In this document: piece after piece, positions 5,448-23,321 of the stretch
How positions within the stretch are numbered: position 1 is the first letter of the stretch
Layout of the letters: each line of letters begins with the position of its first letter
Assembly: GCF_009662475.1 (NCBI RefSeq)
Contig: NZ_CP045571.1
Span: 2,912,501-2,976,500 of the forward strand
DNA from: Acidithiobacillus thiooxidans ATCC 19377
GTDB taxonomy: Bacteria; Pseudomonadota; Gammaproteobacteria; Acidithiobacillales; Acidithiobacillaceae
Length of the DNA stretch: 64,000 nucleotides
Reading direction: 5' to 3'
Notes under the pieces: generated by a model
The model's database searches: none
What the model was told of the DNA's origin: nothing
Seen by the model: the letters and a program-made list of their open reading frames with translations, nothing else
Made by a program: the position numbers and the translations under genes

Positions 5448-6863
5448 TCAGAGGCTGTAGTACATCTGGAATTCTACCGGATGGGTAGTGACGCGCAGAG
5501 CCTGCACTTCCGCCCATTTCACATCCAGATAACCTTCCAGCCAGCTCTGGCTGAATACGCCACCCTTCATCAGGAACTCATGGTCCGCTTCCAAAGCGCG
5601 CAAAGCTTCTTCCAGAGAAGCGGCCACGCCCGGAATATTGGACTGCTCTTCGGCGGGCAGATCATAGAGGTTCTTGTCCATGGCATCGCCGGGATGAATC
5701 TTGTTCTGAATACCATCCAGACCGGCCATCATCATCGCCGCAAAAGCCAGGTAGGGGTTGGCCGTGGAATCCGGGAAGCGGACTTCAATACGCCGCGCCT
5801 TGGGGCTATTGACGAAAGGAATACGAATGGAAGCAGAGCGGTTTTTTGCCGAATAGGCCAGCAACACCGGCGCTTCATAGTGGGGGACCAAACGCTTGTA
5901 ACTGTTGGTGCTGGGATTGGTCAGCGCATTGATGGCCTTGGCGTGCTTGATGATACCGCCAATGTAATAAATGGCCAGTTCCGACAAACCACCGTACAAA
6001 TCACCCGAAAACAGGTTTTTGCCGTCCTTGGCCAGCGACTGATGGACGTGCATGCCACTACCGTTGTCACCGACAATGGGCTTGGGCATGAAGGTTGCGG
6101 TCTGACCATAAGCCGCAGCGACATTGTGAATCACATATTTCAGAATCTGTACTTCGTCGGCTTTGCGGGTCAGGGTGCTGAAGCCCACACCAATTTCATG
6201 CTGACCGGCGGTAGCCACTTCGTGGTGATGGACTTCGACCTTCAGACCCATTTCCTCTAGCGCCAGACACATGGCTGAACGCAGATCCTGAGCAGAATCC
6301 ACCGGAGGTACCGGAAAATATCCGCCCTTCACACCGGGACGATGGCCCATGTTGCCGGATTCATATTCCTTACCGGAATTCCAGGCAGCTTCTTCCGCAT
6401 CGACCTTGTAACCGCAGCCACTCATGTCGATATTCCAGGTCACGGAATCGAAGACAAAAAATTCATTTTCGGGGCCAAAATAAGCAGTATCGGCAATGCC
6501 AGTACTTTTCAAATAGGCTTCGGCACGTTTAGCCACTGAACGCGGATCGCGCTCATAACCCTGACCGGTAGCTGGTTCGATGACGTCACAACGAATGTTC
6601 AGGGTCGCTTCGTCGGTAAAGGGATCGAGCACGGCGGAATCAGGATCAGGCAGCAGAATCATGTCGGATTCATTGATCCCTTTCCAGCCGGCAATGGAAG
6701 AACCATCGAAGGCCTTGCCTTCTACAAAAGTATCTTCTTCCATGGTGTGGGAAGGCACAGAAACATGCTGCTCCTTGCCCTTGGTGTCGGTGAAACGGAA
6801 ATCAATAAATTTGACGTCTTTTTCTTTAATCAATTTCAGCACATCTTTCGGGCTGTGACCCAT
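5448..6863 (-). CDS. glnA: Glutamine synthetase, type I
   Basis: ATP-dependent condensation of ammonium and glutamate to glutamine. The 471-residue length, the N-terminal beta-grasp ([20 protein letters not shown]), the catalytic [19 protein letters not shown], the ammonium/glutamate loop [10 protein letters not shown] and the C-terminal region [17 protein letters not shown] identify GlnA. The adenylylation region KNLYDLP contains the conserved Tyr near residue 400, suggesting control by GlnE. I take the ATG at 6863, after GGAGGAGAAGCAG; an in-frame TTG 15 bases upstream overlaps that site. It is monocistronic, with a sigma-54-type promoter and a downstream terminator. Confidence 0.96.
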
Positions 6864-8373: not shown

Positions 8374-9144
8374 CTACAGCCCCGTAAAACGATGAATCAA
8401 CGAAAAATACCAGCGATAGGGCAGGCAGCGCAGAAATTTGAGCTTGCGGGTAAAGGCGCGGGGAAAGTGAATTTCAAACGCGCTGCTTTCCATACCCGCC
8501 AGAATTTCCGTGGCTGCCTGTTCGGGGCTGATTAAATTGGGCATGGGAAAGTCGTTGTGCGCGGTCAGGGGCGTTGCAACAAAACCGGGATGAATGACCT
8601 GAACCTTGATCCCCTTGGCTTCCAGATCCAGATGCAGGACTTCGGCGAAATGGGTCAGTGCCGCCTTGCTGGGTCCGTAATATAAAGACTGGGGTAAACC
8701 GCGCAGACCAGCCACACTGGAAGTCAGGACGATCTGCCCCTGTCCGGCCGCGAGCCAATCGGCAAGTACCGTATGTACCGCATCTACCGCGCCCAGATAA
8801 TTGGTGCTGATGGCCTGACGGGCCTGGTCCGGGTTGAGTTCCCAGCTCCGCGCGGCCTGATAGGTGCCGGCAAGAAACAGCAGCACATCCAGACCGCCCC
8901 ATTGTTCGCGAATATCTGTATAGGCTTTGTGTAGTTCCTCCGGAGTCGTCACATCGGCGGGGCAAACCAGGGTGTTATCGTTACCCAGCTTGGCGGCCAA
9001 GTCCGCAAGCTTGGCTGGATTGCGCGCCGTCAGCGCCAGCCGGGCACCTTGGGCATTCAGTGCTGCGGCGCAGGCAGCACCGATTCCCGTACTGGCCCCG
9101 ATCAACCAGCAACGTTTACCCTGCCAATAGGACTTATCGCTCAT
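8374..9144 (-). CDS. Short-chain dehydrogenase/reductase
   Basis: Classical SDR of 256 residues. It shows the cofactor motif GASTGIGAA near residue 17, a structural NADPADVT-type region, the catalytic Ser in VLTSSVAGLRG and the YxxxK pair in SLYYGPSKAAL near residue 155. The substrate is unknown. It overlaps the upstream DUF3833 gene by 4 bases (ATGA), so the two form an operon. SDRs with DUF3833, Cfa-like and amine-oxidase genes recur together in the photo-oxidative-stress clusters of other proteobacteria, which suggests lipid or isoprenoid modification. That link is inference from context. Confidence 0.85.
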   Translation of the reverse strand: MSDKSYWQGKRCWLIGASTGIGAACAAALNAQGARLALTARNPAKLADLAAKLGNDNTLVCPADVTTPEELHKAYTDIREQWGGLDVLLFLAGTYQAARSWELNPDQARQAISTNYLGAVDAVHTVLADWLAAGQGQIVLTSSVAGLRGLPQSLYYGPSKAALTHFAEVLHLDLEAKGIKVQVIHPGFVATPLTAHNDFPMPNLISPEQAATEILAGMESSAFEIHFPRAFTRKLKFLRCLPYRWYFSLIHRFTGL

Positions 9145-9695
9145 ACGGGCACCGCATCGCCCACACGCGGTAACTGCAGCATAGTTTTACGATTTTCAGG
9201 CGTATCCGCCAAGCGATGGATTTCTATACTCACGTCACCCACAAAAAAGCCTAAAAAGCGCATTTTGCTCCGGTTAACAACATGATCTTTATCAATCAAA
9301 TACATCCAGTCGTCCACCCGCAAATTGAAAAACCGTTTACCCACCGGTTGCCTTACCGTATATCGCCAGCGCATGGCAAAGCCTTCGGCTTCTCCCTGAG
9401 CAAGCCCCACAATATCCCCTGCAGAACCTTGTGCAGTGGCGGTAAATTTATGGGCACCAGTTACCTGCAATTGCCACAAACGCTCAGCGTGACTGGCCTT
9501 ACCGTCATTATCCAGAAACAGAAATTTTTCGCTCAGGGAACCGACAGAATCAGTCTGCCACGTCCCCAATAAATACATGATAAAGCGATTGACCACCTTA
9601 CCCGAGCGGTCTTGGAAAACTCCCGTAGCCACCGCAGGACCATTAAAAAATTGATTGATATGAAATACCGGAAGTGATGATTCGTATTGTTTCAT
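9141..9695 (-). CDS. DUF3833 family protein (paralogue A, no signal peptide)
   Basis: Protein of 184 residues of the DUF3833 family, function unknown. Conserved stretches shared with the paralogue at 15605-16195 include FFNGP.A.GVF..RSGKVVNRF, GSAGD, QPVGK.F.NL...DWMY and a C-terminal FxGxxxxEIHxLxDT region. The paralogue carries a lipoprotein signal; this one begins MKQYESSLPVFHINQFF and appears to be cytoplasmic, or its export signal has been lost. It is cotranscribed with the downstream SDR (4-base overlap). The two paralogues bracket the PYP locus. Confidence 0.8.
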   Translation of the reverse strand: MKQYESSLPVFHINQFFNGPAVATGVFQDRSGKVVNRFIMYLLGTWQTDSVGSLSEKFLFLDNDGKASHAERLWQLQVTGAHKFTATAQGSAGDIVGLAQGEAEGFAMRWRYTVRQPVGKRFFNLRVDDWMYLIDKDHVVNRSKMRFLGFFVGDVSIEIHRLADTPENRKTMLQLPRVGDAVPV

Positions 9696-9822: not shown

Positions 9823-10878
9823 TCAGGCAGAGGCCGCCAGTAATTGATACAAATCAGCTACCGCCCGGGCACCCGCAGACTGGCCTTGTGCCATTGAATC
9901 ATCAATGGTTTCAGGACCTGTAGCTGCGCCACAAACGTAAATGCCCCTGCGGGTTGTTCCTTGCGTGTTGGTATATTGCTCGGCGCGATCAATAAAGCCG
10001 TGCTTCTCAAGACCGATACCAAACACTTTGGCAATTTCAGGATTCAGTGCATTAGGATCCATGCCAATAGCGTGCACTACCATGTCCATGGGAATAACAA
10101 TAGGACGTTTAACCAGGGTATCTTCGCCTTTGACCAGTAAGCGTCCATCCGGAGATTTCGTTACTTCGGCAATACGAGCCTTGACGAACTTGGTTTTGAA
10201 TTCTTCCTGGCTTTTCCAGTAGAACTTGTCCTCGTAAAGACCGAAGGTACGGATGTCCATGTAATAGATGAACACATCGGTGGTCGGTGACATCTCCTTG
10301 ATTTCCATAGCTAGATTAGTCGACACCGTGCAGCAGATCTTGGAACACCACTCTCTACCGATCTGGCGGTCGCGAGAACCTACGCACAACAATATCGCGA
10401 CCCGCTCCGGAACTCTTCCATCCGAGGGACAACGAATTTGTCCGGTTGCGACCATCTGTTCCATCTGGGTTGTGGTCAGCACGTCCTCATAGGTGCCGAA
10501 CCCCCATTCAGGTTTATTTATAGAGTCAAAATGCGTAAAACCGGTGGCCAGAACCACCGCACCCGCATCTACTTTCTCACCGGAACTCAAAGTCGCCGTA
10601 AAATTGCCTGCTTCACCTTCAAATCGGGTTACTTTTGTTGAAGTATGAATCGCCACATCTTTGTTGCCGGTGACTCGACTTACCATACGACCGATGGCGT
10701 CCTTAGCCCATTCACCCGAGGGGACCAGACGCGCATAACCGGAAATGATGGGGGCTCCACCCAGAACATCTTCTTTCTCGACGATGACGGCTTTTTTACC
10801 CATGGAGGCAATGGTTGCTGCTGCTGAAAGACCTGCGGGACCCGCTCCTACTACCAGTACTGAATCGGTGTTTGCCAT
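9823..10878 (-). CDS. sHdrA-like FAD oxidoreductase (orphan)
   Basis: Soluble flavoprotein of 351 residues resembling HdrA of the sulfur-oxidizing heterodisulfide-reductase-like (sHdr) system. It has an N-terminal FAD motif GAGPAGLSAAATIASMG, a central cysteine-rich block CVGSRDRQIGREWCSKICC that could hold an iron-sulfur cluster, and a C-terminal FAD block IYVCGAATGPETIDDS. The ATG at 10878 follows CAGGAG at good spacing; the frame extends 20 codons upstream, but those overlap the -10 and -35 boxes. In Acidithiobacillus, sHdrA is normally encoded inside an hdrC1B1A-hyp-C2B2 cluster (from memory); here no hdrB or hdrC neighbour exists. It has its own promoter and terminator. Confidence 0.8.
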   Translation of the reverse strand: MANTDSVLVVGAGPAGLSAAATIASMGKKAVIVEKEDVLGGAPIISGYARLVPSGEWAKDAIGRMVSRVTGNKDVAIHTSTKVTRFEGEAGNFTATLSSGEKVDAGAVVLATGFTHFDSINKPEWGFGTYEDVLTTTQMEQMVATGQIRCPSDGRVPERVAILLCVGSRDRQIGREWCSKICCTVSTNLAMEIKEMSPTTDVFIYYMDIRTFGLYEDKFYWKSQEEFKTKFVKARIAEVTKSPDGRLLVKGEDTLVKRPIVIPMDMVVHAIGMDPNALNPEIAKVFGIGLEKHGFIDRAEQYTNTQGTTRRGIYVCGAATGPETIDDSMAQGQSAGARAVADLYQLLAASA

Positions 10879-10893
10879 GACACGCTCCTGGAA

Positions 10894-10958
10894 TTCAATC
10901 AACGATTGAAATTTAGACCACGCCCACGACTTTGTCAATCATTTGTAGTAAACAAATG
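10894..10958 (-). promoter_or_regulatory. Sigma-70 promoter with two operator-like palindromes upstream of sHdrA-like gene
   Basis: On the minus strand a TTGACA box (10933-10938) and TAAATT box (10910-10915) are separated by exactly 17 bases. Palindrome CATTTG-N7-CAAATG (10940-10958) abuts the -35 box upstream. A second, TTCAATC-AAC-GATTGAA (10894-10910), covers the probable transcription start. The pattern suggests tight regulation, but the regulator is unknown. Confidence 0.7.
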
Positions 10959-10979
10959 TTAGTCACTTCTAAGGGATGT

Positions 10980-11891
10980 TCAGGCCCATTCGCGAATGGC
11001 TTTCAACATATCCTGCAAGCGCACAAAACAGGGTTCATCCTTTGCAGCTCCCAGCTCCTGGCAACCACTACCCCCCAACCATAAGCTAACTCCTGCAGGC
11101 ATGCGTTGTTGCAAGTCATGTAATAGCTGGCGATTCTGCGCATTGACTGAAGCTGCCGATACCGCCAGATGAATCACCTGCACATGACAGGCTTCTGCCG
11201 CCGCAATCAAATCATCCACTTCGGGCTCCGAACCAATGAACAAAACATCCACGCCCTCACCCATCAGCAAGGCACGGGTCATCTGCAATTCCAGCGTGCG
11301 GCCTTCTCCGGGAAAACTCGCCAGCAAAACCCGCAGACGGGTTTCACCACCCGGTAACTGACTGGTCGCGACGTAAAGACATTCCATCAGCAGTTCCTGA
11401 AGGCAGCCCTCCCGATAAGCCTTTATTTCACCTATCATTCGGGCGCGAGCGACGCGCTGCAGCAAAGGCGCGGCGACCTGCAGCACAAAGCGGGGGAGTC
11501 CTTCCTGCTGCAGCTGGCGGCGCATGTAACTACGCAACTGCTCGGGACGATCGGAGGCCAGCATATTGAGCGCTTCTGCCAGCACGACAGGATCTTCGCG
11601 GGGTACAGAGTGCTGCGCAGGAATTTCAGCCACCAGGTTGTCGATTTTCTGCGCATCGGCACCCACCACAGCACCCGGCCGATACCCTGCTGCCAGTAAT
11701 TGATTAATCCGGTGCAACCGCTCAATCTGCGCACGACTATACAGACGGTTACCTGCCGCATCCCGACCCGGCACCGGAAAGGCGTATCGCCGTTCCCACA
11801 TGCGCAGTAACTCTTTTGAAATACCGGTTTCCTGCTCAACCACACTGATTGGAAATTGCGATACTTCTGTTTCATCCGTGCTGATATCCAC
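10980..11891 (-). CDS. MerR/LitR-CarH-like regulator without cobalamin-binding residues
   Basis: DNA-binding regulator of 303 residues, starting at GTG 11891 with AGGGA seven bases upstream. Residues about 14-60 form a MerR helix-turn-helix (VVEQETGISKELLRMWERRY, then NRLYSRAQIERLHRI). The rest aligns with the helical and Rossmann-like B12-binding domains of CarH/LitR. The CarH signature residues appear lost: the Trp and His of W-x9-EH align with Arg and Gly (RARMIGEIKAYREG), and the lower-ligand His of GE.H..G aligns with Arg in FPGEGRTLELQM. It therefore probably does not use adenosylcobalamin as CarH does. It is divergent from the PYP gene, 229 bases apart, which suggests a functional pairing. 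Confidence 0.8.
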   Translation of the reverse strand: MDISTDETEVSQFPISVVEQETGISKELLRMWERRYAFPVPGRDAAGNRLYSRAQIERLHRINQLLAAGYRPGAVVGADAQKIDNLVAEIPAQHSVPREDPVVLAEALNMLASDRPEQLRSYMRRQLQQEGLPRFVLQVAAPLLQRVARARMIGEIKAYREGCLQELLMECLYVATSQLPGGETRLRVLLASFPGEGRTLELQMTRALLMGEGVDVLFIGSEPEVDDLIAAAEACHVQVIHLAVSAASVNAQNRQLLHDLQQRMPAGVSLWLGGSGCQELGAAKDEPCFVRLQDMLKAIREWA

Positions 11892-12120
11892 AACCGTTCC
11901 CTTTTTGTATATGACGCCTTATTGACATATGGACCCTGAACAGCAATCTATTTTATCATTGTCACTCAGGTTCCTGCACACATTGACTGGATGTATCGTC
12001 CCATAAATGATCAGGAAAGCCCATGAGTTGAGAGGATTCTGGCGGTTACCCCGCTGCCTGACAACATCATGGCACAGAATCTGTTCTGCCTGTTATTGTG
12101 TCTTTGTCCAAGGAACGTGA
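11892..12120. promoter_or_regulatory. Divergent regulatory region between MerR/LitR-like gene and PYP gene
   Basis: These 229 bases hold both promoters. A weak plus-strand match is TTGACT (11983-11988) with TAAATG 15 bases downstream. TTGTATATG near 11906 resembles TTGTAT/TTGTAC elements found upstream of the photolyase operon. AAGGA before the PYP ATG is the ribosome-binding site. No clear operator can be fixed by eye. Confidence 0.45.
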
Positions 12121-12525
12121 ATGTTAGCCCACAATTTTGTTGCAGATGCCATCCTGAACAACCCCGACCAGATCAATGCGCAAATGGCTGACCGGCAGAG
12201 TTTTGGCATCATTGCTCTGGACAGTCACGCTCAGGTAAAAATTTTTAACGCAGCAGAGGCGCGGCTCAGCGGTTTGAGCGTGACCGAAGTACTGGGCCGC
12301 AACTTTTTTACGGAAGTCGCACCCTGCACAGCCAGCCGCCTGTTTCGTGGAAGATTCCGCCAGGGTATTCAGGAGGGGTCTCTGGACGCGCATTTTTACT
12401 ATACGTTCACCTATCGTATCCGCCCTATCTCTGCCCATGTGCACATGTTTTACGATATGCGTAAAAGTCCGCTTTTTTTTATTTTTATTGATCGCATTAT
12501 TCAGTTGTACGAGGATCTGGGCTGA
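12121..12525 (+). CDS. pyp: Photoactive yellow protein (PYP)
   Basis: Blue-light PAS photoreceptor that normally carries p-coumarate on a cysteine thioester. The 134-residue protein aligns without internal gaps to Halorhodospira PYP over most of its length, with matching numbering: FGIIALD, FNAAE (42-46), GRNFFTEVAPCT (59-70) and YYTFTY (93-98). Cys69, the chromophore attachment residue, and Glu46, which hydrogen-bonds the phenolate, are kept. Tyr42 is Phe, Thr50 is Ser and Arg52 is Leu, so colour and photocycle may differ from the model protein. It has no output domain. Its stop overlaps the next start (TGATG). A ligase able to activate coumarate lies two genes downstream, supporting a true PYP rather than a generic PAS protein. 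Confidence 0.9.
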   Translation: MLAHNFVADAILNNPDQINAQMADRQSFGIIALDSHAQVKIFNAAEARLSGLSVTEVLGRNFFTEVAPCTASRLFRGRFRQGIQEGSLDAHFYYTFTYRIRPISAHVHMFYDMRKSPLFFIFIDRIIQLYEDLG

Positions 12526-12841: not shown

Positions 12842-14152
12842 TTGTCAGGTCGCCATAAATTTCTGCATCAACTGGCAGAAGGTCTGCATCAGGGTTTTGC
12901 ACTGGATTGGCACCGGAATGGTAATACCCATGCCTGGCCGGGACAGTCGCTCTGGGCCAGAGCCGCCCGTATCAAAACCCGCTGGCGCCGCGCCAAAATC
13001 ATCCCCGGAAGCAGAATTGCAGTCTGCCTGCCCAACAGTCCCGCTTATTTGGCCTATATGCTGGCCTGCTGGATGGGTGACTGGATATTCTGCCCCGTCC
13101 CTGCCTTGCACCCATTGGAAATCCAGCGCCGCCTGCAACTGCTCCAGCCCGCACTATGGGTACATTACTCATCAGATCGTGTTCAGGAAGAAGTCCAGGA
13201 AGGTGGCATCCATGACGATCAGGATGCGGCCCTGATTTTGTGGAGCTCGGGCAGTATGGGAGCCGGAAATGCTTACCGACTCAGCTTTGCAGCGTTAGAT
13301 TGGCAGGTTGCCACCCATTTACCGGCACTGCAACTCAGCGCCGATAGCCTGCTCTGGAACACCCTACCCTGGGCCCATGCCTTTGCGGGTGTGTTGGAAT
13401 TACTGCCTGCCTGCATGGCAGGTAGTGTTATTCAGGTAGAAGCACAGCGCGCTCGCCATCCCCCCCGGGACTGTACCCATCTCTTGACGGTTCCGCGCAT
13501 AGCACGCCTGCTTACCCCAAAATTCTTGCATAGCTTACAGAGTGGCATCATTGGCGGAGCCCCCATTGGTAAAGTCCTTGCCAATCAACTCCAGGGCACT
13601 GCGCTGCGGGTGGGTTATGGACAAAGCGAGGCCGGGCCGGGAATCACGCTGGGACCTCCCGGAGAGTTTCAGCCATTTATCCTGGGACATTCCCTGGTGG
13701 AATATGCGTTGCGTGGCGAAACCCTCCATTATCATTCACCCGGGCAAGCTGATGCCCGCCTGTCCGCGTCGGGTTGGCAAAGCATTCAGGATGATCAGGG
13801 CTGGATCAACAGTGGCGATGAAGTCAGCCAGGATCCTGACGGCTGCTTGTTTTGGCGCGGCCGTGAAGATGGGGGATTCAGTCTGGCAAATGGCCACAGC
13901 ATCCGTCCTGAAGCGGAGGAAGCCCGGTTGACGGACCAGTATCCAGAGGCCGAAAGCATTATCCTTGGCGCGCCAGGAGCACGGCACCTGACCGCCGTTG
14001 CAAAAGTACCCGGCGAGAGGGTCTCTACATTGCGCAAACAATGGCAAGAGCCCTATCTGCTGTGCATTCCAGCGGCACGGTTCTGGGACGATGCGCCAGT
14101 GCCTCAGGGCAAGCCCAGTCGGCGCTGGCTGTATTCACACTGGCCGGACTAA
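12842..14152 (+). CDS. AMP-forming acyl/coumarate-CoA ligase-like enzyme
   Basis: ANL-superfamily adenylating enzyme of 436 residues, shorter than typical 4-coumarate ligases (about 540). Motifs are recognisable but divergent: the P-loop-like LILWSSGSMGAGNAYRLS, GYGQSEAG in place of GYGxTE, WINSGDE for the ATP-binding aspartate motif, GREDGGFSLANGHSIRP for the hinge, and a C-terminal PQGKPSRRW that keeps the catalytic Lys. PYP loci elsewhere pair pyp with a p-coumaryl-CoA ligase that activates the chromophore, so that is the likely role. The start appears to be TTG at 12842, five bases after the preceding stop TGA begins; no ATG lies nearby. An alternative is another aryl-CoA ligase. Confidence 0.8.
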   Translation: MSGRHKFLHQLAEGLHQGFALDWHRNGNTHAWPGQSLWARAARIKTRWRRAKIIPGSRIAVCLPNSPAYLAYMLACWMGDWIFCPVPALHPLEIQRRLQLLQPALWVHYSSDRVQEEVQEGGIHDDQDAALILWSSGSMGAGNAYRLSFAALDWQVATHLPALQLSADSLLWNTLPWAHAFAGVLELLPACMAGSVIQVEAQRARHPPRDCTHLLTVPRIARLLTPKFLHSLQSGIIGGAPIGKVLANQLQGTALRVGYGQSEAGPGITLGPPGEFQPFILGHSLVEYALRGETLHYHSPGQADARLSASGWQSIQDDQGWINSGDEVSQDPDGCLFWRGREDGGFSLANGHSIRPEAEEARLTDQYPEAESIILGAPGARHLTAVAKVPGERVSTLRKQWQEPYLLCIPAARFWDDAPVPQGKPSRRWLYSHWPD

Positions 14153-14225: not shown

Positions 14226-15602
14226 ATGCACCCCAGCTCCAAGTCCGTCAGCCCCAGTGAAATTTGGGGCCATGCGGTCGCCAACATCACCCCCTCGGCA
14301 ATGCCCGCTGTTACCATTTCCCTGGTGGCGGTGCACAGTGGCAATTTTACCTGGCTGGCCTATAGCGTCATAGGCATCCTGATGATGCTGGTCGCCCTGC
14401 AAATTGGTATTTTGGCACGGCATTTCCCTTCTCCGGGCTCATTGTTTTTTTATCTGAGCAAAGCCTTGCACCCCATAGCCGGGATGCTGGCGGGCTTTGT
14501 CATGATTGCCGGATACTTTGGTGCCCTGGCAGCTGCGCCCCTGTTAGGAGGCCTGTTTCTGGAGCAGGCCCTGGCCTTTTTCTGGCCCATTCACGGCATC
14601 GGCTGGATTGCGCTTATTGCTTTTATATACCTGCTGATTGCCTGGAGACTGGCGCGGCGCGGCATTGAAATTTCCGCCCGCTGGGGACTTTGGGTGGAAA
14701 TTTTTTCCATTGCCTGCATTTTGTTGATTGCCGCATTTACGCTGGGACATTTTGGCTGGCGAGATCCGGCTCAGTGGCATTTTACGCAAATGCAGCAAGG
14801 CCCGTTTACCCAGGCTTTAATATTATCCCTGTTGGCTTACGGCGGTTTTGAAACAGCCGGAAACCTTGCCGGGGAAACCCGGGCTGCGCGCACGGCTATT
14901 CCCAAGGTCATGCTCTTTTCCGTGGGGATGGTCGGCTTGTTTTTTGTGGCTATGGCCTACATTGAAATTCTGGCCTTTGCCCACATCCCCACCGCCATTG
15001 GTAACAGCCCTGCTCCTCTCAACCGGATTGCCGAGGCTATTGGCAGGCCCTGGCTGGGCATTTTTTCGGATCTGGCCATGGCTACTGCTGCTTTTTCAGC
15101 GACCATCGCCACCCTGAATAGTATTTCCCGCATTTTATTCAGCATGGCGGGACATCAAGTCATCAGTCAGTATTTGCATTTCCGGCACCCCTCGCATGGG
15201 ACCCCTACCCGCGCCCTGGGTCTCCTCGCTATGCTGGTTCTGTTCAGTATAGTGGTGGTGAGCGTGGGCCATTTTTCCATTTTGTCCGTGGTCGGGACTT
15301 TTGGCACATTTACCGGATTGGCTTTTTTGTTGATTTACAGCCTCGCCAATATTGCTACGCCTCTGTATTTATTTCGACAAAAACATGTCTGGCGCTGGTT
15401 CAGCCTTATCATCGCCGTCATTTCCCTGCCGCTGCTGCTCAAAGTACTGGAAGTCAGTTTATGGCCCTTACCTGCCGGCGGAGAAGGTGCTGCCACGGTG
15501 CTGTTTGTGCTACTCGTGCTATTGGTATTTATCTGGGGTTTGCTATGGGCCCGCTTCAAACCCCAGAAATTGCAGCAACTGGTTGAACTTGTTGATGAAT
15601 AA
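14226..15602 (+). CDS. APC-family amino-acid permease
   Basis: Inner-membrane transporter of 458 residues with about 12 hydrophobic segments. The N-terminus (SEIWGHAVANITPSAMPAVT) and the middle motif YGGFETAGNLAGETR are typical of the amino acid-polyamine-organocation superfamily. The gene follows the ligase by 73 bases on the same strand and is probably in the PYP operon. Its substrate is unknown. Tyrosine, or p-coumarate itself, would fit chromophore supply, because no tyrosine ammonia-lyase is present in the window; this is inference. It converges on the DUF3833 lipoprotein gene with 2 bases between stop codons. Confidence 0.85.
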   Translation: MHPSSKSVSPSEIWGHAVANITPSAMPAVTISLVAVHSGNFTWLAYSVIGILMMLVALQIGILARHFPSPGSLFFYLSKALHPIAGMLAGFVMIAGYFGALAAAPLLGGLFLEQALAFFWPIHGIGWIALIAFIYLLIAWRLARRGIEISARWGLWVEIFSIACILLIAAFTLGHFGWRDPAQWHFTQMQQGPFTQALILSLLAYGGFETAGNLAGETRAARTAIPKVMLFSVGMVGLFFVAMAYIEILAFAHIPTAIGNSPAPLNRIAEAIGRPWLGIFSDLAMATAAFSATIATLNSISRILFSMAGHQVISQYLHFRHPSHGTPTRALGLLAMLVLFSIVVVSVGHFSILSVVGTFGTFTGLAFLLIYSLANIATPLYLFRQKHVWRWFSLIIAVISLPLLLKVLEVSLWPLPAGGEGAATVLFVLLVLLVFIWGLLWARFKPQKLQQLVELVDE

Positions 15603-15604
15603 AA

Positions 15605-16195
15605 CTATTTAATTGCGGCGACTTTTTCCCGATTAGCCGCCGTATCCGGCAATTTATGCATCTCCAGAAAGATGTTGCCGGCATGGAATCCATACCAGGT
15701 GACGTCAGTGTGATCTATGACCGTATCGGGAGTGATCATGTACATCCAGTCATTGGCGTGCAGATTGTAAAAGCTTTTACCGACCGGCTGACGCACATCG
15801 TAGGACCAGTGCAGGGCAAATCCGAAGGCATCACCAGAAGCCTTTTTGACATCACCGGCCGAACCTTCAGCACTGCCAACAAAGTGATGTGTACTGGTTT
15901 CAGTAAGATGCCAGACCCGCTGTTGATAGGTCTTTTTACCGGCAGCATCAAAATAGGTGAAGTTTTCCACCAGAGTTCCCTGATTCCCCTGCCAGGAGCC
16001 CATCATGCGCACCACAAAACGATTGACGACCTTACCTGAACGATTTTCAAAAACGCCCTGGGCCATCAAGGGGCCATTAAAAAACGTCTTCAAATCAAAT
16101 TTAGGATGGCTTTGTGCGTATTCCTGCGGCTGAGTGGCACAACCAGCCAGCGCCATCACCAAAGACAAGCCCAAAACTTTATGTACTGTATTCAT
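15605..16195 (-). CDS. DUF3833 family lipoprotein (paralogue B)
   Basis: Protein of 196 residues starting at the ATG at 16195. It begins MNTVHKVLGLSLVMALAGCA, a signal peptide with a lipobox (LAGC), so it should be an envelope lipoprotein. The remainder is DUF3833, with FFNGPLMAQGVFENRSGKVV, GSAGD, QPVGKSFYNLHANDWMYM and a C-terminal EMHKLPDT. It is similar throughout to paralogue A at 9141-9695. The gene ends the minus-strand lipid-modification operon and overlaps the MFS gene by 4 bases. DUF3833 proteins recur with Cfa-like and amine-oxidase genes, but no activity is known to me. Confidence 0.85.
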   Translation of the reverse strand: MNTVHKVLGLSLVMALAGCATQPQEYAQSHPKFDLKTFFNGPLMAQGVFENRSGKVVNRFVVRMMGSWQGNQGTLVENFTYFDAAGKKTYQQRVWHLTETSTHHFVGSAEGSAGDVKKASGDAFGFALHWSYDVRQPVGKSFYNLHANDWMYMITPDTVIDHTDVTWYGFHAGNIFLEMHKLPDTAANREKVAAIK

Positions 16196-17478
16196 GATAC
16201 CCTCCCAGATATGGAACCAGAAAAACGTAACTCCCGACCTTCTACCGACCAATAGCCCATCAAAATAATGGCGATGATTTTGGTCAGCGCCGGAATCACG
16301 GCATAACAAAAAGACAAGGCCCAAAGATCTTTCCCTGAGGAATAACCGAGAGCTTGCAAAAGTGGCAATATCAAACCGGCGCCCAAGGCTGTAGCGGCTT
16401 TGCCCACCCAATTCAACAACCCGAAATAATTTCCCGGTCGACTGCGACTGTCCTGATCACTGTGATCTGCCAGAAGACTGGGCGGCAGGGCCTGATCTGC
16501 CCCGAGAGTCAAACCGGTAAATACACAAATCAGCGCGTAGCCCCAGACATCACCGCTGCGTAGAAAAAAAGCACAGAAAAATGCCAGGGTGGCAATGAAC
16601 ATGGAAAGGCGCCAGGCCAGACTCTTACTGAAATGACTGGATAACCACAACCATAAAGGCATTCCCAATGCGCCCGAAAGAAAGTAGGCCAGTAGAAATA
16701 AGGGAGCCAATTGATGCGCACCAAGAATTTCATCCACAAAAAAGAAAAACAGGGTTCCAGCTACGGCATTGGCAGACTGCGACAAGGTATAAATAATCAG
16801 CAAGTGCCGTAATGACTTACGTCGCAACGCGGAAAAAAATGCCCACCACGGCGTTTTCTCGCCGACCACCGGGCGCTGCATACTGCGCCTTTGCAAAGGC
16901 ATTACGGCCAGAATGAGCAACATCGCAAAAATACCCGCAAAAATTTCCAGACCATGATGACGCCCAAAATGCTTCATCAACAGGTCGGGTAATGCGGCTG
17001 CAAGTAACACCCCAATTAATGCACCAGCCTCGCGGCTGGTCGTCAGCCAGGTCCGGCCATTGTAGTCATGGGAGAGTTCTGCACCCAAGGCCTGATAATT
17101 GACACTACTGACACTGAAAAATATATAAAAAACAATGAGAGACAAGCTTAGACTCAACCAGATCATGCCTGCCAGCGGATTGAACAGTAGATAAAAACCC
17201 AGAATCATTCCGGGAATACCCAGAAGAATCAGCAGACGCCGCCCCCGGTGCTGTTCTGCCCAGCGATCACTCCAAAGCCCGATCAAGGGATCCTGCACGG
17301 CATCCAGCAAGCGGACTGCCAACAAAATTACCCCCAGCAAACTCAGGGACATCCCAAAATCCGTGGCATATAAATGGGGTATTAACAGATATACAGGCAA
17401 GGCACCAAATGCCAAAGGCATTCCCAGCGGAGCGTAAAGCAGGAGCATTTTCAGGGAGGGCCTGTCCTGCTTATTCAT
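16192..17478 (-). CDS. MFS/GPH-type transporter
   Basis: Membrane carrier of 428 residues with about 12 hydrophobic helices, resembling the glycoside-pentoside-hexuronide:cation symporter group. The helix 2-3 loop contains RLLDAVQDPLIGLWSDRW, the typical D-P-hxGxxSDR pattern, and GRRLLILLGIP. In photo-oxidative-stress operons of other proteobacteria a similar carrier accompanies cfa-like and flavin amine oxidase genes, so the cargo may be a lipid or precursor rather than a sugar. The start overlaps the chalcone-isomerase-like gene by 8 bases and its stop overlaps the DUF3833 gene, indicating one polycistronic mRNA. Confidence 0.82.
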   Translation of the reverse strand: MNKQDRPSLKMLLLYAPLGMPLAFGALPVYLLIPHLYATDFGMSLSLLGVILLAVRLLDAVQDPLIGLWSDRWAEQHRGRRLLILLGIPGMILGFYLLFNPLAGMIWLSLSLSLIVFYIFFSVSSVNYQALGAELSHDYNGRTWLTTSREAGALIGVLLAAALPDLLMKHFGRHHGLEIFAGIFAMLLILAVMPLQRRSMQRPVVGEKTPWWAFFSALRRKSLRHLLIIYTLSQSANAVAGTLFFFFVDEILGAHQLAPLFLLAYFLSGALGMPLWLWLSSHFSKSLAWRLSMFIATLAFFCAFFLRSGDVWGYALICVFTGLTLGADQALPPSLLADHSDQDSRSRPGNYFGLLNWVGKAATALGAGLILPLLQALGYSSGKDLWALSFCYAVIPALTKIIAIILMGYWSVEGRELRFSGSISGRVS

Positions 17479-18007
17479 GCAGGTCCAAAAGCTTTTTGCG
17501 TAAACCCGGTACCTGGGTATGGGGACTCAACCAGATGGCAAAAAAGTCCGGACAAAATTGCGGGTCATCAATTTTGCTATGGAGCACGCCATTATAATAA
17601 AATGCCGTGTATTTCCCGGGCATACACAAGCCGACAATCTGATCACCGGATTGCACATCCGGGAATGCATGCTGGAGGTCAGTCCGATATTTTGCCAACT
17701 GAGCGGCATCCAGATCATCCAGTCGCCGCATTTCCTTGAGCGAAGTCTTGACCAGCTCGTGGCTGCTGAAACTGCGCTCATAGTCAATGCCCAAGGCAAA
17801 AGTCCGGGTGGGTGTGTACTGATCGCCGCTGATCCACAACGCCGCGTTATAAACACTGAAAAAAAGCCAGTTCAGATGTCCCGCACCCAGCAAATGCAAA
17901 TCCGGAGCCGCCGTTTTTACCGCTGCCGGCAATGGCACCTTGGGCGCTGCAGACCAGGCGAACGGGCTCATCAAAAGCAAACAGAAAATAGTCAGCAGCT
18001 TAGCCAT
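17471..18007 (-). CDS. Chalcone-isomerase-like exported protein
   Basis: Protein of 178 residues with a clear signal peptide (MAKLLTIFCLLLMSPFAWSA). The mature part shows the bacterial chalcone-isomerase-like pattern: GAGHLNWLFFSVYNAALW, YERSFSSHELVKTSLKEM, GDQIVGLCMPGKYTAFYYNG and a C-terminal FFAIWLSPHT. Such proteins share the fold of plant chalcone isomerase and fatty-acid-binding proteins and need not isomerise flavonoids; fatty-acid binding would suit its neighbours. It overlaps both the cfa-like and MFS genes by 8 bases. Confidence 0.8.
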   Translation of the reverse strand: MAKLLTIFCLLLMSPFAWSAAPKVPLPAAVKTAAPDLHLLGAGHLNWLFFSVYNAALWISGDQYTPTRTFALGIDYERSFSSHELVKTSLKEMRRLDDLDAAQLAKYRTDLQHAFPDVQSGDQIVGLCMPGKYTAFYYNGVLHSKIDDPQFCPDFFAIWLSPHTQVPGLRKKLLDLHE

Positions 18008-19217
18008 GAGTCAGGGTTACCTGGGTCAGATCAATTTCTCCTTCCGCAAAACCGGCTTCGCAATAAACCAGATAAAAGCGCCACATTTTGCAGAATACCG
18101 AGTCATAACCGAGGCTTTTAACGGCCTCTTCCTGAATATCAAAACGATGACGCCAAATGCGCAAAGTCCTGGCGTAGTCCTGACCAAAATCTTTGCGTTC
18201 GAGCAATTGCAAACCGGCTGTAGATATTTCTTCCTGCAGCCGGGCCGGAGAAGGGAGCATCCCGCCTGGAAACACATAATGACGGATAAAATCAGAACTT
18301 CTCTGATAGGCCGAAAAACGCGCATCGGCGATGGTAATACTCTGGATCAGCGCCCGTCCGCCTCTGCGCAGCAGCTGGTGAATTTGCTGAAAATAAATGG
18401 ACCACCATTCAGCACCCACCGCCTCGAGCATTTCGATGGAGACAATTCCATCATAACGACCCTGTAAATCCCGATAATCCATCAGGGAAAATTCCGTTAA
18501 ATGACTGAGCCCCTGTTTTTCAAGCCGCTCTTTCGCATAAGCCAACTGCTCTTTTGACAGGGTAATACCATGCACAAAAAACCCGCAACGCGCTGCATAT
18601 TCGGCAAATCCACCCCAACCACAGCCTATTTCCAGAAGTCTTGATCCAGGGGCCAAATTCAGGGCACTGAGCGCCCGTGCATATTTTCTTTCCTGGGCGT
18701 CAGTCAGCGTCAGGGAATCGTCACCATCATACAAGGCACTGGAATACGTCATACTCGAATCCAACCAGAGCTGGTAAAATTCATTGCCCAGGTCGTAGTG
18801 AAACGAAATATTCTTGCGGCTACCGCGCCGGGTATTGGCGCGCAACAGTCGGTTCAGCAGGGTGAATATCAAGCGCCGGAACCATGAACCCTCAACGAAT
18901 TTTTCGACCATGGCACGATTGGCAATAGCCAGACGCAGCAATGCCACCGGATCACTGCTCTCCCACAAGCCTTCCATGTAACCGCGCCCGAAAGCAATAT
19001 CACCATCCCGCGCCAGCAGCGACAAAATTCGCCAGTCATTCACCACCCACTCGGCTTGAATACCCGATTCTGCCCCCTGAAACTGCAAAATTTCCCCTTC
19101 CGGGGTTTTCAGCGTCAATTGTCCGCAATGCATGCCTTCCAGCATCTTCAGCAAGCTTTGTGCAGAGCGGGGAAGTCCTGACATAGGAATTCTTTGGTTA
19201 CCAAGCGCTGTACTCAT
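18000..19217 (-). CDS. Cyclopropane-fatty-acyl-phospholipid synthase family methyltransferase
   Basis: SAM-dependent methyltransferase of 405 residues acting on unsaturated acyl chains of membrane phospholipids. The SAM motif LEIGCGWGGFAEYAARCG, the GITLSKEQLAYA segment, YDGIVSIEMLEAVG and the C-terminal YARTLRIWRHRF are hallmarks of the Cfa family. The N-terminal lipid-binding region is present. In this operon, with an amine-oxidase-like flavoprotein and DUF1365, it may make a methylated or furan fatty-acid precursor rather than a simple cyclopropane lipid; that is inferred from similar singlet-oxygen-response clusters. It overlaps the genes on both sides. Confidence 0.88.
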   Translation of the reverse strand: MSTALGNQRIPMSGLPRSAQSLLKMLEGMHCGQLTLKTPEGEILQFQGAESGIQAEWVVNDWRILSLLARDGDIAFGRGYMEGLWESSDPVALLRLAIANRAMVEKFVEGSWFRRLIFTLLNRLLRANTRRGSRKNISFHYDLGNEFYQLWLDSSMTYSSALYDGDDSLTLTDAQERKYARALSALNLAPGSRLLEIGCGWGGFAEYAARCGFFVHGITLSKEQLAYAKERLEKQGLSHLTEFSLMDYRDLQGRYDGIVSIEMLEAVGAEWWSIYFQQIHQLLRRGGRALIQSITIADARFSAYQRSSDFIRHYVFPGGMLPSPARLQEEISTAGLQLLERKDFGQDYARTLRIWRHRFDIQEEAVKSLGYDSVFCKMWRFYLVYCEAGFAEGEIDLTQVTLTHG

Positions 19218-19981
19218 AAACTGATCTCCTGCTGGAGGGGCTCCGGTTTTTTATGAAAAGGAATGTGCGCACGCCATAGTCGGATGGCCTGCCAATGAAT
19301 AAAAAAAACGACTGAGAAGGTCATGAAAGGCTGCTGCAAAACGGCCCGCCAGATGCTGGAAATATTCAGATCACGGCGCTGCCCCGCAATTTGCGTGATG
19401 AGACAGGGCGCGCCATCCGCATCCAGATAATGAATATCTGCCTGAAATCCTTGATCTTCGAGATGAAAGCGAAAGCGATACTGCCCTTCTACCGGTAAAA
19501 ACGGGGATACATGAAAAGCCTTATTGGCAACCAGCCAGTCACCCTTGCCGATAGCGCGCCGGTCTGCGTGCGCCAGTAAATAACTATGGTGCTCGCCGAA
19601 AGTGTTGTTCACCTCAGCCAGCACGCCGCGCAGTCTGCCGGCTTCGTCCAGGCCCAGCCAGAAACTGACCGGATTAAAAACATATCCCCAAAGACGGGGA
19701 TAGGTGACCAGGACAAAGCGGCTGACTTCAATCTGCTGCTCGGCAAAAATGTCGCGAATCCAGGCTGAAAGTGGCGAACCATCACGGCCACCATGATCAC
19801 GATCGTGAAAACGCAGGGGACTGAAGCGGCAAAGAATTTTCTGCAGCAGCGACAAATCATCCAGATCAAAGCAAATACTGAAGGTCCGGTAATGAAATGC
19901 GCGTCGCAACGGCTGCAGGCGACGATGCATGACGCGGCCCAGCAGAAGCCCGCCCTTCAGCGTAGAACTTGTTGTGGCCAT
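19214..19981 (-). CDS. DUF1365 family protein
   Basis: Protein of 255 residues with family landmarks: GRVMHRRLQPLRRAFHYR, RFHDRDHG, VTYPRLWGYVFNPVSFWL, EVNNTFGEHHSYLL, and KAFHVSPFLPVEGQYRFRF. A C-terminal hydrophobic segment (PFMTFSVVFFIHWQAIRLW) may anchor it to the membrane. DUF1365 is nearly always encoded between an amine-oxidase-like flavoprotein and a Cfa-type methyltransferase, as here, suggesting a joint role in acyl-chain modification. No catalytic activity is established that I can name. It overlaps the flavoprotein gene by 25 bases and the Cfa gene by 4. Confidence 0.85.
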   Translation of the reverse strand: MATTSSTLKGGLLLGRVMHRRLQPLRRAFHYRTFSICFDLDDLSLLQKILCRFSPLRFHDRDHGGRDGSPLSAWIRDIFAEQQIEVSRFVLVTYPRLWGYVFNPVSFWLGLDEAGRLRGVLAEVNNTFGEHHSYLLAHADRRAIGKGDWLVANKAFHVSPFLPVEGQYRFRFHLEDQGFQADIHYLDADGAPCLITQIAGQRRDLNISSIWRAVLQQPFMTFSVVFFIHWQAIRLWRAHIPFHKKPEPLQQEISL

Positions 19982-21276
19982 GTTTCCATCCGGGGTTCAG
20001 TGGCAGGACTTGCCTGCTTTTGCCAGGTAGCGCGAATACCCATGTGGTTGGCGACTTCGACGGCACTGCGCAAACCGTCTTCATGAAAACCATGGCCCAG
20101 CCAGGCACCACAAAACCATAAGCCATCTCGACCCTGCAGACGACGCACGGCCTCCTGGCCAGCCAATGCCCCATGATCAAATACCGGATGGGCATAATGA
20201 AACTGTGCCCAGGTTTTTTGCGGATCCGGTACGCGCTGCGGGTTCAAAGTAACCATAACCGGCGTCTTGAAGGGCAGAGGTTGCAACTGATTGATCAAAT
20301 AGGTGACAGCCACCGAACGCCGGGCGTCGGCAACCCCTTCTTCATGAAAATTCCAGGCAGCCCAAGCTTTGCGATGCTTGGGAAGAAAACTTTCATCCCA
20401 ATGCAGGTAGGCTTCATTGTCCTGATATTGACACTGCGCCAGCGCCGCGCTTTGTTCTGGCCAATGGTCACCCAGCAACTTTCTGGCCTGATCGCCATGC
20501 AGGGCGCAAATGACCTGATCAAAGTGTTCTTTCTGATTGCCGGCAAACTGGACCATGACCCCGCCTTCCGGAGCCGGATGCAATGCTTCCACCGGCGCAT
20601 TCAGACGGACATCGCTGAGCTGTCGAGTGATGCGCTGGACGTATTCACGGCCTCCACCAACAACTGTCCGCCATTGTGGCCGATCAAAAATCTGTAACAG
20701 TCCATGATTCCGGTAAAACTGCAAAATGGAACGCGCCGGATAAGCCAGCATGGTTGCGGTCGGGCAAGACCAGATGGCTGCCGCCATGGGAAGAAGATAG
20801 GCTGTTTTGAACCACTCCCCGTAGGCTCCCCGACGCAGAAACTCGTCCAGGGTGATGTCAGCATCGCTTATGTTTAACCAGGCCAACGCCTCGCGATTGA
20901 AGCGCAAAATATCCTTGAGCATTCCCCAAAAAGCCGGACGCAAAATATTCCGCTTCTGGGCGAAAAGCGTGCTCAGACTGGAGCCGCACCATTCCAGATT
21001 CAGGGCAGGAAGGCGCACACTGAGGGACATGTCACTGGCGGTCCAGGGTACATTCAGTTCCGCGAAAAGCCCCAGCAAATTCGGGTAGGTTCGATCGTTA
21101 AACACCAGAAAACCGGTATCTACAGGTGCTGAAACGCCCTGCAGGCTGACATCCACGGTGTGAGTATGACCGCCGGGGTAGTCCGCCGCCTCGAAAACAC
21201 TCACGCTATGCGTTTTCCGCAATATCCAGGCGGCCCCCAGCCCGGAAATACCTGCACCAATGATGGCAACTCGCAT
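19957..21276 (-). CDS. Flavin-containing amine oxidase-like protein (lipid-modification cluster)
   Basis: FAD-dependent oxidoreductase of 439 residues and first gene of the minus-strand operon. The N-terminus MRVAIIGAGISGLGAAWILR is a dinucleotide-binding motif, followed by EAADYPGGHTHTVDV and DTGFLVFNDRTYPNL. The C-terminal RDGLWFCGAWLGHGFHEDGLRS, given here in outline, is the second FAD motif. This subgroup resembles phytoene desaturase and amine oxidase but usually clusters with Cfa and DUF1365; in Rhodobacter-type clusters it is linked to unsaturated or furan fatty acids (from memory). AAGGAG precedes the ATG. It is divergent from the DUF2256-photolyase operon. Confidence 0.85.
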   Translation of the reverse strand: MRVAIIGAGISGLGAAWILRKTHSVSVFEAADYPGGHTHTVDVSLQGVSAPVDTGFLVFNDRTYPNLLGLFAELNVPWTASDMSLSVRLPALNLEWCGSSLSTLFAQKRNILRPAFWGMLKDILRFNREALAWLNISDADITLDEFLRRGAYGEWFKTAYLLPMAAAIWSCPTATMLAYPARSILQFYRNHGLLQIFDRPQWRTVVGGGREYVQRITRQLSDVRLNAPVEALHPAPEGGVMVQFAGNQKEHFDQVICALHGDQARKLLGDHWPEQSAALAQCQYQDNEAYLHWDESFLPKHRKAWAAWNFHEEGVADARRSVAVTYLINQLQPLPFKTPVMVTLNPQRVPDPQKTWAQFHYAHPVFDHGALAGQEAVRRLQGRDGLWFCGAWLGHGFHEDGLRSAVEVANHMGIRATWQKQASPATEPRMETWPQQVLR

Positions 21277-21556
21277 AAATCTCCTTTATTGTTTTTAAAT
21301 GTATTGTACAAGTACTCACTTAGTATAGGATAACGCAAAGCTCCCCAAACATCCTATGTCGGTTCGAATGATCCAGAACCTGCAATGCCTCGGTACGCTC
21401 AAATCCCCACAGCACAACCGCAACACCCTGGCAAAGTGGCCTTATCAGCTATTACGCAAATACTTCGTCAGTGGATGCAGGTTCAGACACCTTGCGCATT
21501 GCGCCGAAGCCTTGTTAGTCTTATTGTACTATACAATTTCTAATTTTGTATAAGCC
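21277..21556. promoter_or_regulatory. Divergent regulatory region with TTGTAC/TACAAT palindromes
   Basis: The 280 bases between the lipid operon and the photolyase operon hold TTGTACAA (21304-21311) about 30 bases before the amine-oxidase gene and a perfect palindrome ATTGTA-CTA-TACAAT (21523-21537) about 20 bases before the DUF2256 start, followed by TTGTATAA. They look like operator copies of one regulator controlling both directions; the MerR/LitR-like protein is the obvious candidate. A TATACT (about 21322-21327, minus strand) could be a -10 box. An open frame of 65 codons in the middle has no protein-like features and is not called. Confidence 0.55.
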
Positions 21557-21724
21557 ATGAAACCCCTACAACGTCATCAGGAAGAAAAAATCTGTGTGGT
21601 CTGCCAGCGCCCCTTTACCTGGCGTAAACGCTGGAAGCGCTGTTGGGATGAAGTACGTTATTGTTCAGCCGCCTGTCGAAAAAATCGGCATCACTCCGGA
21701 AACCAGCCCCATGTCTCAGACTGA
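21557..21724 (+). CDS. DUF2256 zinc-ribbon-like small protein
   Basis: Small basic protein of 55 residues ([20 protein letters not shown] and onward) with four cysteines arranged C-x2-C...C-x3-C ([16 protein letters not shown], then RYCSAACR) plus one more Cys, the DUF2256 pattern, probably binding zinc. It overlaps the photolyase gene by 14 bases in another frame. DUF2256 genes commonly sit just upstream of photolyase/cryptochrome genes in proteobacteria, suggesting a helper role in DNA or chromophore handling; the function is unknown. Confidence 0.85.
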
Positions 21725-23321
21725 AAGGACTGTTCGTCATCTGGTAGTGATTCTCGGTGACCATCTGGATCCGGACAGCCTGGCCCTGGAAGGCTTCGAT
21801 CCGGATCAGGATCTGTGCTGGATGGCCGAAGTGCCCGAAGAGTCCAGCATAGTCTGGTCGCATAAGGCCCGCATTGCCCTGTTCCTGAGTGCCATGCGTC
21901 ATCATGCTGCAGCCTTGCGGCAACGTCGCTTTCCTTTGGAGTATCTGACCTTTGGCACGCACCCCTATCAGAGCATGAGTCAGGCCCTGGAAGCGGCTCT
22001 ACTACGCTGGCAGCCCCGGCAAATCATCAGCCTGCGTCCCGGCACCTGGCAGCTGCGCGAAACCATTCGTCACTGCGCAGAAAGTAGGCAGATTCCCTGG
22101 CAAGAACGGCGTAATCTTAATTTTCTGTTTTCAGTCCCGGAATTTGGCCAGTGGGCAGAAAATCGTCGCCAGATGCGTCTCGAGTTCTGGTACCGCCACG
22201 CCCGGCAAAAAACCGGGATACTCATGGATAATGATCAGCCGGTTGGCGGGCGCTGGAATTTTGATCCGGAAAACCGTCAGCGTCCCGGTTCTCAGGGTCC
22301 CGGCTGGATTCCGGAACCTTTGAGTTTTACTCCGGATGCCATCACCCGGGAAGTCATGGCCCTGGTCGAAACACAATTCGCCGAACACCCGGGTAACCTG
22401 CAACACTTTGACTGGCCGGTGACTTCCCAACAGGCCCAAGCTGCGCTTCAGGATTTTCTGGATAGTCGTCTTGCACAATTTGGCCCCCTGCAGGATGCTT
22501 TCTGGCCAGGACAGGTCTGGCTTTATCATTCCCGGCTGTCTGCAGCGCTGAATCTCGGCCTGATCCGTGCCATAACGGTCATTCAGGCGGTGGAAGAAAA
22601 TTTCCGGGCTGGTAAAGTTTCCATCGCCTCTGCAGAAGGATTTATCCGGCAAATTTTGGGCTGGCGCGAATACATACACGGCCTCTATTGGCTGCACATG
22701 CCCCAATGGCTGCAGCAGAATATCCTCCAGGCCCATCAGCCCTTGCCGGAATTCTACTGGACGGCAAAAACCGACCTGTCCTGCCTGCAGGACACCATCG
22801 CGCGCACTCTGGAGCATGGTTATGCTCACCATATTGAAAGACTGATGATTACCGGTCTGTTTGCGTTGCTGCTGGGTGTCGAACCGCAAGCCATTCATCG
22901 CTGGTTTCTGGCCATTTACGTGGATGCCGTGGAGTGGGTGGAGCTGCCCAATGTCATCGGCATGTCCCAGTATGCAGATGGCGGCTGGATGGCATCCAAG
23001 CCCTATGTCGCCAGTGGTAATTATCTGCAGAAAATGGGCGGGCATTGTCAGCGCTGCCCGTATGAACCCAAATTGGCTAGCGGCGCAAAAGCCTGCCCCT
23101 TTACGGTGCTGTACTGGGATTTTCTGCAGACGCACCAGGAACGTTTCCGTCAGCATCCGCGTACCGCCCTGCAATGGAAGCATCTGGAACGCATGTCCGA
23201 TGACCGTCTTGCGGCGATTCGCGCCCAGGCTCAGGTGATACGCAAAAACCTGGAAGATGGTCACGCATTCGAGGTGAATATAATGCATCCGGAACCCGAA
23301 ATTTCACGTAATCTGGAATAA
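21711..23321 (+). CDS. Iron-sulfur bacterial photolyase/cryptochrome (PhrB/FeS-BCP type)
   Basis: Light-driven DNA repair flavoprotein, likely a (6-4) photolyase, of 536 residues. The N-terminus [20 protein letters not shown] is typical of the group. Four cysteines, Cys358, Cys446, Cys449 and Cys462, match the cluster ligands of Agrobacterium PhrB at a constant offset of eight residues (from memory of that protein), so a [4Fe-4S] cluster is expected. The HIERLMITG motif holds the active-site His. I take the ATG at 21711, inside the end of the DUF2256 gene; the frame is open farther upstream but lacks a better start. Cytochrome b and molybdoenzyme genes follow closely. Confidence 0.92.

Follow-up and report, generated by a model that had tools for sequence, protein, structure and literature searches.

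A PYP photoreceptor encoded divergently from a B12-less CarH/LitR-type regulator in Acidithiobacillaceae: a candidate light-responsive repressor pair

Repression by MerR-family proteins is relieved by a separate protein, as is proposed here, in the BluF/BluR system of Escherichia coli and the CarS/CarA system of Myxococcus. BluF is a BLUF photoreceptor and CarS a light-induced antirepressor; a PYP would take their place in the present case. In the PmlR2/PmSB-LOV system of Pseudomonas mendocina, the lit LOV protein binds to the HTH domain of the repressor and strips it from DNA (PMC9758184). The precedent of a B12-less LitR paired with a short LOV antirepressor, which had been brought up in the sequence-only reading of the DNA analysed here, is thus real. 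The published links of PYPs are to chemoreceptors, histidine kinases, c-di-GMP enzymes and unspecified transcriptional regulators (PMC9664959, PMC12826048), and a 2025 survey of 984 PYPs names the partner of the single-domain PYPs as an important knowledge gap (PMC12826048). The text of this survey on pyp operons makes no mention of MerR, LitR or Acidithiobacillus; operon analysis leaves out divergent genes. Among the open-licence papers searched for PYP together with LitR, MerR or Acidithiobacillus, none appears to describe such a pair.

The window (the whole stretch of 64,000 nucleotides of Acidithiobacillus thiooxidans ATCC 19377 that was analysed) contains genes for a MerR-type regulator and a single-domain PYP that are divergently transcribed and separated by 229 bp (Table 1). 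The coordinates, strands and gap of this pair and the chromophore Cys69 are all as the sequence-only reading had them. Like PmlR2/PmSB-LOV, the locus places the gene of a single-domain blue-light receptor close to that of a LitR/CarH-family regulator that presumably does without B12, and the putative target genes likewise include those for a photolyase, an SDR, an FAD oxidoreductase and a fatty-acid-modifying enzyme. Unlike the flavin-based PmSB-LOV, the photoreceptor is a PYP, in which a p-coumarate thioester is expected on Cys69, and there is no adjacent short LOV gene. A search of the genome for the LOV core motif yielded two-mismatch hits only, no more than the reversed-pattern control, and a LOV partner was rejected on these grounds.

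Table 1. Features of the PYP-regulator locus and the putative target cluster (positions in the window)
Feature	Position	Strand	Details and basis
SDR and DUF3833 genes, also assigned to the putative light cluster	8374..9695	-	PF00106, PF12915
CarH/LitR-fold MerR regulator without cobalamin ligands	10980..11891	-	303 aa, GTG start; Pfam MerR_1, CarH alignment, model superposition
Conserved direct repeat with 18-bp period, CATATGTCA/CATATACAA (as - strand)	11905..11931		Regulator promoter
Weak operator-like site GATACA-N11-TGTGCA	11975..11997		10 of 12; between PYP and regulator
Single-domain PYP photoreceptor	12121..12525	+	134 aa; match to solved H. halophila PYP (PDB), E 2e-22; alignment of 78 PYPs
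orf104, short protein predicted to fold into four helices	12525..12839	+	104 aa; overlaps PYP stop codon
AMP-forming acyl-CoA ligase, putatively the p-coumarate:CoA ligase that supplies the PYP chromophore	12842..14152	+	PF00501, E 1e-19
Amino-acid permease, possible operon end	14226..15602	+	PF00324/PF13520
DUF3833 protein, start codon probably more internal	15605..16411	-	PF12915
MFS transporter, same cluster	16192..17478	-	PF13347
Chalcone isomerase-like protein	17474..18007	-	PF16036
Cyclopropane-fatty-acid synthase family enzyme	18000..19217	-	PF02353
DUF1365 protein	19214..19981	-	PF07103
FAD-dependent amine oxidase-like protein; its gene leads the putative light-induced operon	19957..21276	-	PF01593
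Operator-like site TGTA-N3-TACA-N11-WGTAYA, FAD side	21300..21327		Exact or near in six regulator-bearing genomes
Operator-like site TGTACTATACA-N11-TGTATA, immediately 5' of the DUF2256 gene	21525..21552		Exact in all six regulator-bearing genomes, 0/11 others
DUF2256 zinc-finger-like protein	21557..21724	+	PF10013
Photolyase-related protein (ORF, probably with a more internal start codon)	21594..23321	+	PF04244

Residues 12-267 of the regulator align with the CarH/LitR protein of T. thermophilus (E 1e-15), and the MerR HTH is combined with CarH-type helical and Rossmann effector domains in the class I layout. The AlphaFold model of the regulator (pLDDT 83, with 11 sequences as input) superimposes on the effector domain of CarH (5c8d) with Z 19.9 and 2.6 A over 195 residues, so that the likeness to class I CarH/LitR extends from the HTH and the domain order to the fold of the whole effector region. 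Unlike class I proteins, the regulator is accompanied by a separate photoreceptor gene and has W131, H142 and H177 replaced: the CarH ligand columns W131/E141/H142/H177 read R/E/G/R, and the W-x9-EH motif above the corrin has become R-x9-EG. Across all ten regulators of the family, the W131 column is occupied by R or E and the H142 column by G, A, R or Q, and the column of the lower axial His (H177) is Arg in every one. The alignment confirms the replacement of Trp, His and lower His by R, G and R that had been noticed from the letters of the sequence. The regulator scores 84.2 bits against the NCBIfam CarH equivalog NF052513 (cut-off 400) and 28.8 bits against PF02310, under the cut-off of 32.1, and there is no match to PF02607, the 4-helix B12-binding_2 family. 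This is the reverse of the class II LitR pattern; unlike PmlR2, for which a 4-helix Pfam match has been reported, the regulator keeps recognisable similarity to the B12-binding Rossmann domain.

An alternative cobalamin His, which had been set beforehand as the outcome that would count against B12-independence, was looked for and rejected, since nine of the ten B12-less regulators, when aligned, share no invariant His at any position. Adenosyltransferases of the CobA/CobO/BtuR (PF02572) and PduO (PF01923) types were found in none of the 17 genomes of the genus, in a search for these two families that recovered the named controls; judging from the absence of these two families, the genus Acidithiobacillus probably cannot make AdoB12, and the missing supply suggests a reason for dropping B12. 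Taken together, the ligands gone in 10/10 regulators, the lack of an invariant His and the lack of CobA/BtuR and PduO uphold the earlier claim that the regulator should not be B12-photoregulated, and its B12-independence is well supported by these sequence comparisons. The same observations weigh against the reading that the regulator itself is the sensor and still holds a corrinoid or heme in an unusual, SCHIC-like mode as in AppA. The cobalamin-domain fold is indeed kept and the AppA SCHIC domain is a structural neighbour of the regulator model (Z 16.4), but with all three ligand residues replaced, no invariant His and neither tested adenosyltransferase family in the genus, we regard this reading as highly improbable.

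The 14 closest regulators outside the family, drawn from 369 genomes of the class and a plasmid collection, all retain the W, the EH and the lower His, and in a maximum-likelihood tree the ten B12-less regulators are set apart from the rest by one branch, which has 100/100 support. Since the closest relatives found are B12-competent and of the CarH type, the ligand loss looks like an event separate from that of class II LitR, and the regulator does not appear to be simply a class II LitR. Six of the 14 outside regulators adjoin the gene set that the window also has, with FAD oxidase, DUF1365 and CFA-type methyltransferase and, in most cases, MFS, DUF3833 and SDR, and within the flanks read there is no PYP or LOV motif beside any of these six. 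Parsimony on these data favours one derived event, in which the B12-type regulator of the cluster would have lost B12 in Acidithiobacillaceae, where it stands by a PYP.

The PYP is identified unambiguously and retains Cys69 (within APCT), Glu46, Phe62, Pro68 and Phe96. Position 42 is Phe in all members of the family, where Tyr is usual; among the 67 other PYPs aligned, F42 occurs in one, and M100, which is replaced by I100 here, in 63. Tyr42 is usual but not universal, and about 9% of PYPs have Phe at this position in published sets (PMC9664959). The match to the NCBIfam equivalog TIGR02373 (97.5 bits, E 6e-28) falls under the cut-off of 143 of this model, which is narrow and not family-defining. 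The family PYPs also carry a conserved C-terminal tail, IIQLYEDLG. In sum, the key residues and the acyl-CoA ligase gene downstream are shared with other single-domain PYPs, those of H. halophila and its family (PMC9664959, PMC12826048), from which the present PYP differs in F42, I100, the C-terminal tail, the lack of a detectable aromatic ammonia lyase (see below) and a LitR-type repressor as the candidate partner. Purifying selection is apparent for both proteins of the pair (dN/dS 0.05-0.13 for the PYP and 0.08-0.12 for the regulator); this and the persistence of the pair in ten species point to more than a chance arrangement.

Downstream of the pyp gene, the AMP-forming ligase is present in all ten species, whereas the permease follows only in the genus Acidithiobacillus and is missing at the Igneacidithiobacillus loci. 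Between PYP and ligase lies orf104, which begins on the PYP stop codon, is kept in 9/10 species with an invariant NNA-Q-DG core and is predicted to form four helices (model pLDDT 78). These features would fit a small helical adaptor that is co-translated with PYP and through which PYP acts on the regulator indirectly. We give this route only a slim chance, considering that comparison of the orf104 model with PDB folds brought no match that would point to a function and that A. concretivorus retains PYP, regulator and ligase with orf104 mostly lost; the deletion between PYP and ligase in this species lies around 10400-10475 of the retrieved locus.

Among the 17 Acidithiobacillus genomes, PYP is present in six and the regulator in the same six, and the other eleven have neither gene. 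All six pairs are divergent, spaced by 229-230 bp and located within a syntenic block. The nearest named PYP loci are those of Acidithiobacillus sulfurivorans, A. sp. HP-2, A. concretivorus, A. marinus and A. montserratensis, followed by Igneacidithiobacillus, four species of which have the same divergent pair and then orf104 and the ligase, with identities of 57-65% for PYP and 48-54% for the regulator. The Igneacidithiobacillus flanks are partly different, and in YTS05 the adjoining genes are not those of the FAD/CFA cluster. The ten species are related and share one inherited linked block, so the counts of pairs are not independent. Inheritance of a linked block would yield identical co-occurrence if the regulator were a light-independent repressor, or one responding to redox or another cue, and PYP signalled elsewhere, the two being linked only as parts of one stress or light island. 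The intact effector domain and the purifying selection on the protein are compatible with such a regulator, as is a Cys (residue 235) that is invariant among the B12-less regulators and might be a redox or ligand site. Nevertheless, we consider this explanation fairly unlikely: divergent adjacency has been held across two genera while effector identity dropped to about 40%, the pyp operon contains no other signalling partner (kinase, GGDEF or MCP), and the related regulators that stand by this cluster elsewhere have complete light-sensing ligands. A partnership between PYP and the regulator is the likely interpretation of the conserved arrangement. Between Acidithiobacillus and Igneacidithiobacillus, the HTH is 78-87% identical and the effector domain 40-45%; the strong conservation of the HTH fits an extra constraint on this domain but would also be expected from DNA binding alone.

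Two operator-like sites are located within the promoter region between the divergent FAD oxidase and DUF2256-photolyase genes. They are the sole matches to TGTA-N3-TACA-N11-WGTAYA with at most one mismatch in the 3.4-Mb single-contig genome, as judged with a motif that was derived from the same two sites. Exact sites are present in 6/6 genomes with the regulator and 0/11 without it; the FAD amine oxidase-like target gene occurs only in the six PYP-bearing genomes of the genus and is thus also absent from those eleven, so that the correlation between site and regulator is confounded and does not prove which protein binds. The half-sites at 21305-21327 and 21530-21552 equal those of the published PplR/PmlR operator, TRTACA-N12-TGTAYA (PMC9758184), with the spacer N11 instead of N12. 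The published N12 operator as such has no convincing site in the window; the N11 variant fits. Compared with the strong sites at 21300-21552, the region between the PYP and regulator genes (11892-12120) has a weak one, which scores 11 of 12 in A. concretivorus. The direct repeat in the regulator promoter is retained in six Acidithiobacillus genomes and degenerate in genome G296. The operator motif was not found near the regulators of the B12-type relatives or in the fetched Igneacidithiobacillus loci, which accordingly lend it no support. A Rfam search of the window gave no matches. The HdrA-like gene next to the regulator (9823-10938) shows a conserved palindrome, CATTTGT-N5-ACAAATG, that precedes a TTGACA box (10880-11000). 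The SDR/DUF3833 gene pair of the putative cluster recurs in B12-type LitR clusters of other bacteria.

With moderate confidence, we favour a sensor swap, in which a CarH-type regulator lost AdoB12 sensing and came to depend for its light signal on the PYP encoded opposite it, which would relieve repression. The ancestor would have been an AdoB12-competent CarH-type repressor of a light-induced cluster comprising FAD oxidase, DUF1365, CFA synthase, MFS, DUF3833, SDR and photolyase-related protein genes; in Acidithiobacillaceae, all cobalamin ligands would have been lost, with the adjacent PYP now supplying the light signal. In the dark, the regulator would sit on the TGTA-N3-TACA-N11-WGTAYA operators and repress. 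Under blue light, PYP would pass into its signalling state and bind to the regulator, removing it from DNA, with the contact probably on the highly conserved HTH domain by analogy with PmSB-LOV on PmlR2. The photoprotection/lipid regulon would thus be derepressed in the light, in parallel to the action of LOV on class II LitR in Pseudomonas.

Formation of holo-PYP is in doubt given that no member of the aromatic ammonia lyase family (PF00221) was found in the 17 Acidithiobacillus and four Igneacidithiobacillus genomes. At least one member is present in 12/12 other PYP genomes tested; as the family includes histidine ammonia lyase, this does not establish a tyrosine ammonia lyase there. The putative chromophore ligase gene sits in the pyp operon although the PYP-bearing Acidithiobacillaceae lack an aromatic ammonia lyase. 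A switch with two inputs, in which light and an imported phenolic acid, either p-coumarate or a similar one, would jointly release the B12-less CarH repressor, appears quite unlikely to us; under such a scheme the missing lyase would confine holo-PYP to places where plant- or microbe-derived phenolics occur.

If the sensor swap is real, AdoB12 photolysis has been replaced by PYP photochemistry within one repressor family, and two separate photoreceptors, LOV in Pseudomonas and PYP here, have been recruited to B12-less LitR proteins; a PYP antirepressor would then be a new kind of optogenetic part. The candidate pair is conserved, compact and soluble and comes with a specified target promoter, which makes the question of the PYP partner directly testable.

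Outside the family, a PYP-LitR pairing was seen at one of 80 PYP loci, in a Bdellovibrio MAG, and was judged incidental; there, roughly 3 kb separate an intact B12-type CarH (5910-6818 of the locus) from a PYP-domain gene that is part of a chemosensory operon. A contig filed as a Phycisphaera mikurensis MAG encodes a PYP and a regulator nearly identical to those of Acidithiobacillus and is probably mis-binned. In Methylotuvimicrobium, at two loci (L026, 238-1845, and L072), PYP forms the C-terminal part of a fusion with a methyl-accepting chemotaxis protein, and a ligase gene is adjacent.
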